NCBI RefSeq assembly: GCF_030164465.1
Contig: NZ_JASNJE010000009.1
Span: 1-64,000 of the forward strand
Length of the DNA stretch: 64,000 bases
Source of the DNA: Sedimentitalea xiamensis
GTDB lineage: Bacteria > Pseudomonadota > Alphaproteobacteria > Rhodobacterales > Rhodobacteraceae
Reading direction: 5' to 3'
Positions 59,013 to 64,000 of this stretch are shown piece by piece. Made by a program: the position numbers and the translations under genes. The stretch's first letter is position 1. Each line of letters opens with the position of its first letter. Under the pieces are notes generated by a model. That model saw only the letters and a list, made by a program, of their open reading frames with translations. It made no database searches and was not told the origin of the DNA.

Positions 59013-60401
59013 TCAGCTGTGGATCGGGCCGTCGCCGCAGGCCAGCGCCGCCTCTCGCACCGCTTCGGAATAGGTCGGGTGCGCGTGGCAGGTCATGGCG
59101 AGGTCTTCGGCGGAGGCGCCGAATTCCATCGCGACGCAGATCTCGTGAATCAGGTCGCCCGCGCCGGGGCCGATGATATGGGCGCCGAGGATGCGGTCGG
59201 TGTCCTTGTCGGCGAGGATCTTGACGAAACCGTCGGCGGCGAAATTGGCCTTGGCGCGGCCGTTGCCCATGAACATGAACTTTCCGGCCTTGTAGCTACG
59301 CCCCTGTTTCTTCAGGGTTTCCTCGGTCTCACCCACATTGGCGACCTCGGGCCAGGTGTAGATCACGCCGGGGATGACGCCGTAGTTCACATGGCCGTGC
59401 CTGCCGGCCACCTGTTCGGCGGCGGCCATGCCTTCGTCTTCGGCCTTGTGGGCCAGCATCGGGCCGTCGATGGCGTCGCCGATGGCGTAGATGCCCTTGA
59501 CGCTGGTCTGCCAGTCCTTGCCGGTCTTGATCTGTCCCCGCGGCGACATCTCGACGCCGAGCGCGTCGAGGCCGAGCCCGTCGGTATAGGGTTTGCGCCC
59601 GGTGGCGACGAGTACGACATCGGCGTCCAGAACGTGGTCGCTGTCGTCCTTCTTCAGCTTGTAATGCACCTTGGCCTGGGTTTTGGTCGCTTCGGTCTTT
59701 TGCACCGCCGCGCCCATGATGAATTTAAGCCCTTGTTTTTTCATAATTCTCTGGAAGGTCTTCTGCACTTCCGGGTCCATGCCGGGGGTTATGGCGTCGA
59801 GATATTCCACCACCGTCACCTCGGCGCCGAGGCGGGAATAGACGCTGCCCAGTTCCAGCCCGATCACGCCGGCGCCGATCACCACCATCTTCTTCGGGAT
59901 CTTGCCCAGTTCGAGCGCGCCGGTGGAGGTGACCACCACCTTTTCGTCGACCTCGACGCCGGGCAGGGAGGAGGGTTCGGAGCCGGTGGCGACGATGATG
60001 TTCTTCGCCTCGTGGACCTCGTCGCCGACCTTGACCTTGCCCGGTTCCGGGATGCTGCCCCAGCCCTTGAGCCAGTCTATCTTGTTCTTCTTGAACAGGA
60101 ATTCGATGCCCTTGGTGTTGCCGTCGATCACATCCTGCTTGTAGGCCTGCATCTGTTTCCAGTCGACCGTGGGGGCCTTGCCCTTGAGGCCCATGGCGGC
60201 GAAATTGTGCTGGGCCTCGTGCAGCTGGTGGGAGGCGTGCAGCAGCGCCTTGGACGGAATGCAGCCGACGTTGAGGCAGGTGCCGCCGAGGGTGTCGCGG
60301 CTTTCGACGACCGCGGTTTTCAGGCCCAGCTGGGCGCAGCGGATGGCGCAGACATAGCCGCCGGGGCCGGCGCCGATGATGATGACGTCATAGTTTGCCA
60401 T
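59013..60401 (-). CDS. lpdA: Dihydrolipoyl dehydrogenase (E3)
   Basis: A 462-residue FAD enzyme reoxidising dihydrolipoamide. The redox disulfide is C42/C47 in [13 protein letters not shown]; the NAD motif [11 protein letters not shown] and C-terminal His-Glu dyad in [11 protein letters not shown] are present. Its place after sucA-odhB marks it as the E3 of 2-oxoglutarate dehydrogenase, although a MAPEG gene and a foreign-looking gene intervene. ATG at 60401. Confidence 0.96.
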
Positions 60402-60563: not shown

Positions 60564-60953
60564 TCATGTGAGCGCCGCCAGCAGCATAAGGAGGGTGGCG
60601 AGGAAGCCGGCGAACCAGATCAGCGAGCGCCAGGGGGTGAGGCCGAGGGCGTAGGCGGGGACGTAGAGGAGGCGGGCGGCGAGATAGGTCCAGGCGCAGG
60701 CGGCGGTGAGGTCGGTGGACTGGTCCGAGAGGGTGATGACGGTGCAGGCGATGGTGAAGAGGATCAGCCCTTCGAAATGGTTGTTCATCGCCCGTTGCAG
60801 CCGGCCCGCCATGCCGGTGAGCTGGACGGGCGTGTCGCGGGGGCCGAGCGCGGTTTTCGGGCCGACCTGCCGGTTGGCGGCAATGGAGTAGGCCGCGAAC
60901 TGGAGGGTTTGCAGCAGGGCGGCGAGGGTGAGGGCGGTGAGTTCGGGGGTCAT
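60564..60953 (-). CDS. MAPEG family membrane protein
   Basis: A 129-residue protein with four hydrophobic helices and the MAPEG pattern (RLQRAMNNHFEGLILFT). Bacterial MAPEG proteins are related to eicosanoid/glutathione enzymes; the substrate is unknown here. It lies 162 bases upstream of lpdA and its start is 2 bases after the stop of the gene at 60956. Confidence 0.87.
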   Translation of the reverse strand: MTPELTALTLAALLQTLQFAAYSIAANRQVGPKTALGPRDTPVQLTGMAGRLQRAMNNHFEGLILFTIACTVITLSDQSTDLTAACAWTYLAARLLYVPAYALGLTPWRSLIWFAGFLATLLMLLAALT

Positions 60954-60955
60954 GG

Positions 60956-61393
60956 TTAAACAACAGGCCGTGACTTGTAATTGCTCATTGCGCTAGTGCG
61001 TTTTGCCCGTTCTTCTTCCTTGGCCAGTTTGTTTCTTGTTTCCGCGTTGCTGGCAGGCAAAGTGATTGGAATAGCGAACTTTACGCGACTAATCTCCTCT
61101 CCCTTACGTGCGTGCGAGCCATTCAAACCTGCATCAAAGGACATTATCCTTAAACCGGCTTTTCCGCCTCCCTTAGTCTCCTTTGTGGCAGTAACTGCTA
61201 CGTCAAATTCAACCTCATGGATGCGTCTCACAGTATGATCAGGGCTGCCTTCTTCGAATTTTGAGGTACCTTCTAGGCCGTATGATGTTGGTGGGTTGAT
61301 AATCACGCCCTGCTCTTCATATGCATCACGGAGTTCACTGGTGGCCTCTATAATGCCCCCGATCGTTTCTTTAATGAAATCTTTCAAGTCCAT
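60956..61393 (-). CDS. Trypsin-co-occurring domain (trypco2)-like protein, probably acquired
   Basis: A 145-residue protein starting MDLKDFIKETIGGIIEAT, followed by a polar loop with NPP, then strands EVEFDVAVTATK and ISRVKFAIPITLP. This order resembles the trypsin-co-occurring domain 2 family, found with proteases in bacterial conflict systems; the assignment is from memory. Base use differs sharply: 61201-61260 has 28 G/C of 60, whereas surrounding genes are near two-thirds G/C. No protease partner is next to it. ATG 61393 is used; an upstream Met at 61444 is less likely. Confidence 0.65.
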   Translation of the reverse strand: MDLKDFIKETIGGIIEATSELRDAYEEQGVIINPPTSYGLEGTSKFEEGSPDHTVRRIHEVEFDVAVTATKETKGGGKAGLRIMSFDAGLNGSHARKGEEISRVKFAIPITLPASNAETRNKLAKEEERAKRTSAMSNYKSRPVV

Positions 61394-61480
61394 TTCGACG
61401 ATCTCCAAGTCCGTGACATTAGATGGCCGACGGACGCCGGCCATGCGAAAAGAGCCTAGCTTCAGTCTGTCATGTGTTCA

Positions 61481-62974
61481 TCACAAATCCATCAGCAACC
61501 GCCGCGGATCTTCCAGCGCCTCTTTCACCCGGACGAGGAAGGTCACGGCGCCCTTGCCGTCGACGATGCGGTGGTCGTAGGACAGCGCCAGATACATCAT
61601 CGGGCGGATGACGACCTCTCCGTTGATCGCCATGGGCCGGTCCTGGATCTTGTGCATGCCGAGGATGCCGGATTGCGGCGGGTTGAGGATCGGGGAGGAC
61701 ATCAGCGAACCGTAGACGCCGCCGTTGGACAGGGTGAAGGTGCCGCCCTGCATTTCCGCCATGGAGAGCTTGCCGTCGCGGGCGCGGCGGCCCTTTTCGG
61801 CGATGGCCTTTTCGATCTCGGCGAAGGACATGCTGTCCGCATCGCGGATCACCGGCACCACGAGGCCGGTGGGGGTGCCGGCGGCGACGCCCATGTGGAC
61901 GAAGTTCTTGTAGACGATGTCGGTGCCGTCGATCTCGGCATTGACCTCGGGGACTTCCTTCAGGGCGTGGCAGCAGGCCTTGGTGAAGAAGGACATGAAG
62001 CCGAGGCGGACGCCGTGCTTCTTTTCGAACTCGTCCTTGTAGCGGTTGCGCAGGGCCATCACCTCGGTCATGTCCACCTCGTTGTAGGTGGTGAGCATGG
62101 CGGCGGTGTTCTGGCTGTCCTTCAGGCGCTTGGCGATGGTCTGGCGCAGGCGGGTCATCTTGACCCGTTCCTCGCGCGCGGCGTCATCGGCGGGCACCGG
62201 GGCGCGCGGAATGGAGGCGGGGGCGGGCGCGGGCTGCGCCGCGGCGGCGACGGCGCGGGCGACGTCGTCCTTCATCACCCGCCCGTCGCGGCCGGTGCCG
62301 GTGACCTGATCGCGGGAGATCCCGGCTTCGGCCATCGCCTTTTTCGCGGAGGGCGCATCCTCGATATCGCCGGTTCCCCTGGCGGGGGCGGCGGCCGGCG
62401 CCTCCGGGCGCGGGGCGGGTTCGACCGCGCCATCGGCGGCGCCGGCGATCACGCCGAGCCTGGCGCTGGCATCGACGGTGGCGCCTTCGGGCGCGGTGAT
62501 CTCGGTCAGCACCCCGGCGGCGGGGGCGGGCACCTCGACGCTGACCTTGTCGGTTTCCAGTTCGCAGAGCATCTCGTCCTGCGAGACGCTGTCGCCCACG
62601 GCCTTGAACCAGGTGCTGACGGTCGCCTCGGTGACGGATTCCCCGAGGGTCGGCACCATGATGTCGACAGCGCCGTTGCCGGCCTTGGCGGGCCTGGCCT
62701 CTTCCGTTCTGGCCGCCGGTTCCGGGGTGGCGTCGCCGGTTTCGGCGATATTGGCCAGCAGCGCATCGACGCCGACGGTTTCGCCTTCGGCGGCGACGAT
62801 GTCGGCCAGCTTGCCGGCGGCGGGGCTGGGCACCTCGACCGTCACCTTGTCGGTTTCCAGCTCGCAGAGCATTTCATCGACGGCGACGATGTCGCCGGGC
62901 TTCTTGAACCAGGTGGCGACGGTGGCTTCGGTCACGGATTCGCCCAGGGTCGGGACACGGACTTCGGTGGTCAT
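61481..62974 (-). CDS. odhB: 2-oxoglutarate dehydrogenase E2 (dihydrolipoyl succinyltransferase) with two lipoyl domains
   Basis: A 497-residue E2. It has two lipoyl domains with lipoyl-lysines K43 and K143 in LCELETDKV, exactly 100 residues apart. A peripheral-subunit-binding domain (about 210-245) and a catalytic core ending with [16 protein letters not shown] follow. Many homologues carry only one lipoyl domain. It succinylates CoA within the sucA-odhB-lpdA complex. Confidence 0.96.
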
Positions 62975-62980
62975 GTTCAG

Positions 62981-64000
62981 TTATCCTTCGATGGTCAGCG
63001 CTTCGTTCACGAGCGCGGCTTGTTGGGCTTTGTGCTGGCTGGCGAGGCCGGTGGCGGGCGAGGCCGAGGTGGCGCGCCCGGCATAGACGGGGCGCTTGTG
63101 CTTGGCCTTGATCCGGTTCAGAACCCATTCGATATTGGGTTCGATGAAGGTCCAGGCGCCCTGGTTCTTGGGTTCTTCCTGGCACCAGATCATCTCCGCG
63201 CCCTTGAAGCGTTCCAGTTCCTTGACCAGGCTGAGCGCCGGGAAGGGGTAGAACTGTTCGATGCGCAGCAGGTAGATATCGTCGATGCCGCGGGCGTCGC
63301 GTTCTTCCAGCAGGTCGAAATAGACCTTGCCGGAGCACATGACCACGCGCCTGATCTTCTTGTCGGCGACCAGACTGGTGTCGGAATTGCCCTTTTCCGC
63401 GTCATCCCAGAGCACCCGGTGGAAGCTGGAGCCGGTGGTGAAATCCTCGGCCGCGGAAATGGCGAGCTTGTGGCGCAGGAGCGATTTCGGCGTCACCAGC
63501 ATCAGCGGCTTGCGGAAGCTGCGGTGGATCTGGCGGCGCAGGATGTGGAAGTAGTTCGCCGGCGTCGTGCAGTTGGCGACGATCCAGTTGTCCTGGCCGC
63601 ACATTTGCAGGAAGCGTTCCAGCCGGGCGGAGGAGTGTTCCGGCCCCTGGCCTTCATAGCCGTGCGGCAGCAGGCAGACGAGGCCCGACATGCGCAGCCA
63701 CTTGCTTTCGCCCGAGCTGATGAACTGGTCGAACATGATCTGCGCGCCGTTGGCGAAGTCACCGAACTGGGCTTCCCAGAGCACGAGCGCGTTGGGTTCC
63801 GCCAGCGAATAGCCGTATTCGAAGCCGAGCACCGCGTATTCGCTGAGCATGGAGTCGATGACTTCGTATTGCGACTGCCCGGCGCGGACGTGGTTGAGCG
63901 GGTAGTAGCGTTCCTCTGTGTTCTGGTCGATCAGCCCGGAATGGCGCTGGCTGAAGGTGCCGCGGGTCGCGTCCTGTCCGGCCAGCCGCACCGGGTAGCC
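62981..64000 (-). CDS. sucA: 2-oxoglutarate dehydrogenase E1 (C-terminal part, runs off window)
   Basis: The last 340 codons of the thiamine-diphosphate E1 are visible, beginning GYPVRLAGQDATRGTFSQRHS and ending QAALVNEALTIEG. Motifs such as WEAQFGDFANGAQIMFDQFI and CLLPHGYEGQGPEHSS are those of the E1o C-terminal half. The start lies beyond 64000. The gene is 6 bases upstream of odhB. Confidence 0.96.
   Translation of the reverse strand, partial: GYPVRLAGQDATRGTFSQRHSGLIDQNTEERYYPLNHVRAGQSQYEVIDSMLSEYAVLGFEYGYSLAEPNALVLWEAQFGDFANGAQIMFDQFISSGESKWLRMSGLVCLLPHGYEGQGPEHSSARLERFLQMCGQDNWIVANCTTPANYFHILRRQIHRSFRKPLMLVTPKSLLRHKLAISAAEDFTTGSSFHRVLWDDAEKGNSDTSLVADKKIRRVVMCSGKVYFDLLEERDARGIDDIYLLRIEQFYPFPALSLVKELERFKGAEMIWCQEEPKNQGAWTFIEPNIEWVLNRIKAKHKRPVYAGRATSASPATGLASQHKAQQAALVNEALTIEG

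Follow-up and report, generated by a model that had tools for sequence, protein, structure and literature searches.

A Trypco2-like gene of probable phage or satellite origin in a variable slot of the 2-oxoglutarate dehydrogenase operon of Sedimentitalea xiamensis

The 64,000-nucleotide stretch of Sedimentitalea xiamensis DNA analysed here (the window) exhibits a small gene of foreign composition within the 2-oxoglutarate dehydrogenase (2-OGDH) operon. We consider it probable that this is an accessory gene of phages or satellites, horizontally acquired, lodged in a variable slot of the operon and expressed by read-through, for which we propose a role in immunity. The operon has the layout sucA-odhB-slot-MAPEG-lpdA, with the following features:

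59013..60401, minus strand: lpdA (dihydrolipoamide dehydrogenase), the next operon gene; an ORF conserved in congeners
60564..60953, minus strand: MAPEG-family gene, downstream flank of the slot (PF01124, E-value = 3.8 × 10-27)
60954..61480, no strand: variable slot, from the odhB stop to the MAPEG start; 527 bp here, GC 0.49
60956..61393, minus strand: Trypco2-like gene in the 2-OGDH operon, 145 aa, likely start ATG at 61393
61481..62974, minus strand: odhB (2-oxoglutarate dehydrogenase E2), upstream flank of the slot; alignment identity 83-85% in congeners
62981..64000, minus strand: sucA (E1), 3' part, truncated by the window end

The longest frame of the Trypco2-like gene extends from 60956 to 61444 on the minus strand (162 aa), and this ORF is a genuine gene. 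The ATG at 61393, with GGAG ahead of it, is common to the homologues and yields a product of 145 aa beginning with MDLKDFIKET. The composition of the gene is clearly foreign. Its coding sequence exhibits a GC content of 47.6% and a GC3 of 0.46, against a GC3 of 0.90 for odhB, 0.92 for MAPEG, 0.87 for lpdA, 0.86 for sucA and 0.82 for tetR. In a 500-bp profile of the interval from 50 to 64 kb, GC drops under 0.55 at this gene alone (0.484). The initial annotation had reported about 47% G/C for positions 61201-61260 and a gene of foreign composition in the 2-OGDH operon; our recount (28 of 60, 47%) and the GC3 range of the neighbours (0.82-0.92) bear this out. Its description of a break in the sucA-odhB-lpdA run needs a correction: the Trypco2-like gene does lie inside the run, but the MAPEG gene (60564-60953) also stands between odhB and lpdA. 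Homologues with intact frames occupy the same slot in the genomes G003 (about 57% identity) and G381 (53-55%). Differences between the window genome (G000) and G003 amount to 0.35, 0.25 and 0.65 at the three codon positions, falling mostly on the third, so that the frame appears to be under protein-level selection. Judging from such comparisons, it behaves as a selected protein in G000, G003 and G381.

The initial annotation also proposed a likeness to Trypco2, to be checked with the family profile. Against PF19631 (Trypco2) the window protein scores 21.9 bits (E-value = 2.1 × 10-4), and the version with the shorter start (145 aa) 22.2 bits, both less than the gathering cut-off of 24.2 bits. 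The alignment covers profile positions 25 to 67 of 78, corresponding to the core of the domain. This match is the sole one in its own genome, and 11 of 37 aligned relatives, distant ones included, reach an E-value of 10-3. The similarity along the core thus stands while the family cut-off is missed; at the sequence level we regard the resemblance as real, though sub-threshold. The AlphaFold model of the protein, of moderate confidence (mean pLDDT 74.8, pTM 0.57), predicts helices at the N-terminus (residues 3-25) and the C-terminus (116-140) and, between them, strands at 58-69 and 100-111; the loop at 73-95 is poorly modelled. This model has no PDB match with an E-value <0.001. The protein matched no known defence family in PADLOC at an E-value of 0.1, and no NCBIfam family.

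The gap between odhB and lpdA is a variable slot. We compared 66 related genomes, represented by 60 fetched odhB-to-lpdA intervals, the loci of G001-G004 and G381, and the window. With classes defined by thresholds of our own (empty, <200 bp; low-GC, filled with DNA 8 or more GC points under the flanks), 19 slots are nearly empty, 19 are low-GC and 28 are otherwise filled. The empty site that the initial annotation had suggested looking for in relatives is therefore present. Slot ORFs were called mechanically; among the 19 low-GC slots, 18 have their longest frame on the operon strand, one of these (G004) by a near tie (78 versus 77 codons). Several long ORFs of GC-rich slots are probably spurious and were left out of the analysis. 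Five congeners (G000-G004) hold four unrelated small genes in the slot: the Trypco2-like gene in G000 and G003, a gene for a 167-aa protein in G001, one for a hydrophobic protein of membrane type (called by eye) in G002, and one for a short protein in G004. Families of 230 aa and 240 aa also recur, as does a HEPN-like ORF in which an RDKLIH motif was recognised by eye. Ten slot proteins searched against Pfam, six of them also against PADLOC, gave no convincing match. The 230-aa family occurs mainly, and a 160-aa family only, in the odhB slot, so movement between slots is shown for the Trypco2-like genes only. We detected no scar of a mobile element at the odhB slot; the route of insertion is therefore a guess.

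A single-sequence search finds the gene in 5 of 395 genomes of the family, and a profile built from seven relatives finds it in 15 (16 counting G003). This is far from a gene of normal composition present in all relatives, the outcome that the initial annotation had named as contrary to its reading. Three of the 16 copies are in the odhB slot, two follow rplP in the S10 operon, four lie between the sarcosine oxidase beta and delta genes and four lie next to a dihydropyrimidinase gene or the hydrolase gene that partners it; the others are found at an ABC transporter locus, at a LysR gene and in a capsid-bearing element (one each). The names sarcosine oxidase, dihydropyrimidinase and transporter are our own reading of the sequences, made without profile scans. 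One of the S10-operon copies (G394) contains an internal stop. The gap between the sarcosine oxidase genes varies as well: of 40 such gaps, 11 are shorter than 100 bp, and several more contain GC-poor genes overlapping their neighbours by a few bases. What follows rplP in the S10 operon likewise differs between genomes, a TIGR02466 gene being common there. In the loci L215-L234, 0.9-3.7 kb of variable content separates rplP from rpmC in this ribosomal operon.

Relatives are also encoded on 37 IMG/VR contigs. One of these contigs (L109) carries this same protein, and at about 22-43% identity most viral copies are only distantly related. Some are located directly downstream of a phage repressor; in a Bacteroides phage genome the copy starts 6 bp after a repressor-type transcriptional regulator. 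In Bacteroides phage BS-TP2 the Trypco2-like gene (L108:5001-5390) bears the GenBank label PhnM, a name that looks mistaken. Among 67 neighbouring ORFs, a Pfam scan returned a few families of the Cro/CI-type HTH, S24, resolvase and integrase kinds. The capsid-bearing element (genome G096, about 9.5 kb, L041:8562-17978) has the Trypco2-like gene as its terminal gene, opposite the integrase end. It encodes an integrase, a replication-initiator-like protein, an HNH protein, a terminase, a head protein, a head protease and three further ORFs without an assignment, and no match to a tail family was found in it. It is possibly a capsid-forming satellite; with head genes and no tail family we term it satellite-like, not a proven satellite. 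We also considered a plasmid origin and discarded it, as 72,556 plasmid records contain no relative.

A phylogenetic analysis unites the odhB-slot copies in one clade (support 100/100) with the copy of the G096 element and the S10 copy of G243, the latter two being nested beside G381 (95/90). Copies of one lineage are thus found in a metabolic operon, in a ribosomal operon and in a phage element. The sarcosine-slot copies form a separate clade (100/92), the dihydropyrimidinase copies a third, weaker one (72/83), and the other S10 copy, that of G394, clusters with G331 and one viral copy. This tree was obtained from a short domain, and many of its deeper branches are weakly supported.

The foreign GC3, the empty or differently filled slots, the sense orientation and the relatives in the S10 operon and the phage element lead us to read the gene as cargo. 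An old, vertically inherited gene of the 2-OGDH operon, with a metabolic or regulatory role, evolving fast and lost in many lineages, would account for the same site and orientation in three genomes and for the protein-level selection. We find this quite unlikely, given the GC3, the phage relatives and a clade that includes S10-operon and phage-element copies; moreover, the identity to a congener and to another genus is alike 56%, whereas odhB exhibits about 85% and 75%. Phage derivation could also hold without any immunity function, the gene being a selfish or addictive element, a protein regulating lysogeny, or neutral baggage at a permissive intercistronic site. The copies directly following phage repressors fit such a reading, as do the many unrelated uncharacterised genes, membrane proteins included, that the slots also house; the selection seen among G000, G003 and G381 speaks against pure baggage. 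On balance we regard it as unlikely.

The initial annotation had viewed the gene as a possible orphan of a protease-bearing conflict system. In the literature, Trypco2 is associated with trypsin-like peptidases or termed an adaptor (PMC7159879; PMC10907252), and the window protein, with its sub-threshold match, shares the same strand core (PF19631; eLife 2020, PMC7159879). It could be an orphan component of a Trypco2-trypsin system (VMAP/MoxR-vWA type), an adaptor for a protease encoded elsewhere. However, a motif scan of 54 loci with relatives reveals no trypsin-like ORF, and the window neighbours include no trypsin-like peptidase, as initially stated. Unlike in the published systems (PMC7159879), no trypsin-like, MoxR or vWA partner was recognised beside the window gene, and genes of this type stand single in operons and phages. 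A VMAP-C search gave no match in its own genome, but none in any control genome either. With the family cut-off also missed, the conflict-system proposal does not hold up well and we judge it very unlikely; the absence of a trypsin-like ORF from the 54 loci therefore favours a stand-alone, phage-derived accessory protein. An integron-type cassette at a secondary site, suggested by single, sense-oriented small genes of odd composition, is extremely improbable: the stop codon of the Trypco2-like gene lies 2 bp ahead of the MAPEG start and the low-GC sarcosine-slot genes overlap the next start. We rejected it since no room is left for a 3' attC site.

According to the cargo reading, an accessory gene from a phage or satellite gene pool would have entered the operon between odhB and MAPEG, where it would be transcribed by read-through from the metabolic operon and not from a promoter of its own. 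Once brought in by a phage or satellite, it may have passed from species to species through recombination within the conserved genes on either side. The small protein, either by itself or together with proteins of the host, would defend against competing phages or confer superinfection immunity to them, an action needing no dedicated protease partner. This anti-phage or superinfection-immunity role is the least certain step, and from the present comparisons we would give it roughly equal chances of being right or wrong. Similar arrangements of variable accessory genes at a fixed place are known from the P2/P4 and satellite hotspots of antiviral systems (PMC9122126), which the Trypco2-like copy terminating a capsid-bearing element also recalls. 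In contrast to these, the slot belongs to a chromosomal core operon, not to a mobile element, and its function is putative. The core defense hotspots of Pseudomonas aeruginosa (PMC10250203) likewise exhibit variable content between conserved chromosomal genes, but they carry recognised defence systems, whereas the odhB slot mostly holds single uncharacterised genes in a co-directional operon.

We put forward, as a tentative and rather doubtful generalisation, that housekeeping operons of this bacterial family (2-OGDH, S10, sarcosine oxidase, dihydropyrimidinase) may act as fixed sites of expression for single-gene immunity modules that are interchangeable, lack promoters and shuttle between chromosomes and phage satellites, the Trypco2-like gene being one protease-independent module. 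A literature search turned up no account of defence slots nested in operons of the family. Much of the search for defence genes surveys islands and mobile elements, and single genes nested in core operons would be missed in this way. Reading the odhB-lpdA interval across genomes is a simple way to collect such genes, and the slot gene offers a test of Trypco2-like protein function without a protease.

Some minor observations concern the slots and their gene families. The 230-aa slot family has a distant relative (L166:1495-3656, G297) near an ORF that reads as SLOG-type plus membrane segments and has no NCBIfam match. The genome G024 holds low-GC genes in both the odhB slot (L077) and the sarcosine oxidase slot (L208). 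Both proteins exhibit an R-X4-H motif like HEPN RNases (RDKLIH and RDCFAH, seen by eye, with no family match). GC-rich stem-loops, which we do not propose as insertion sites, are found at the 5' end of some filled odhB slots. One also directly follows odhB in most empty slots (mean z of -2.4 over 18 slots), with no obvious T-run (for instance in L048, L057, L067 and L078).
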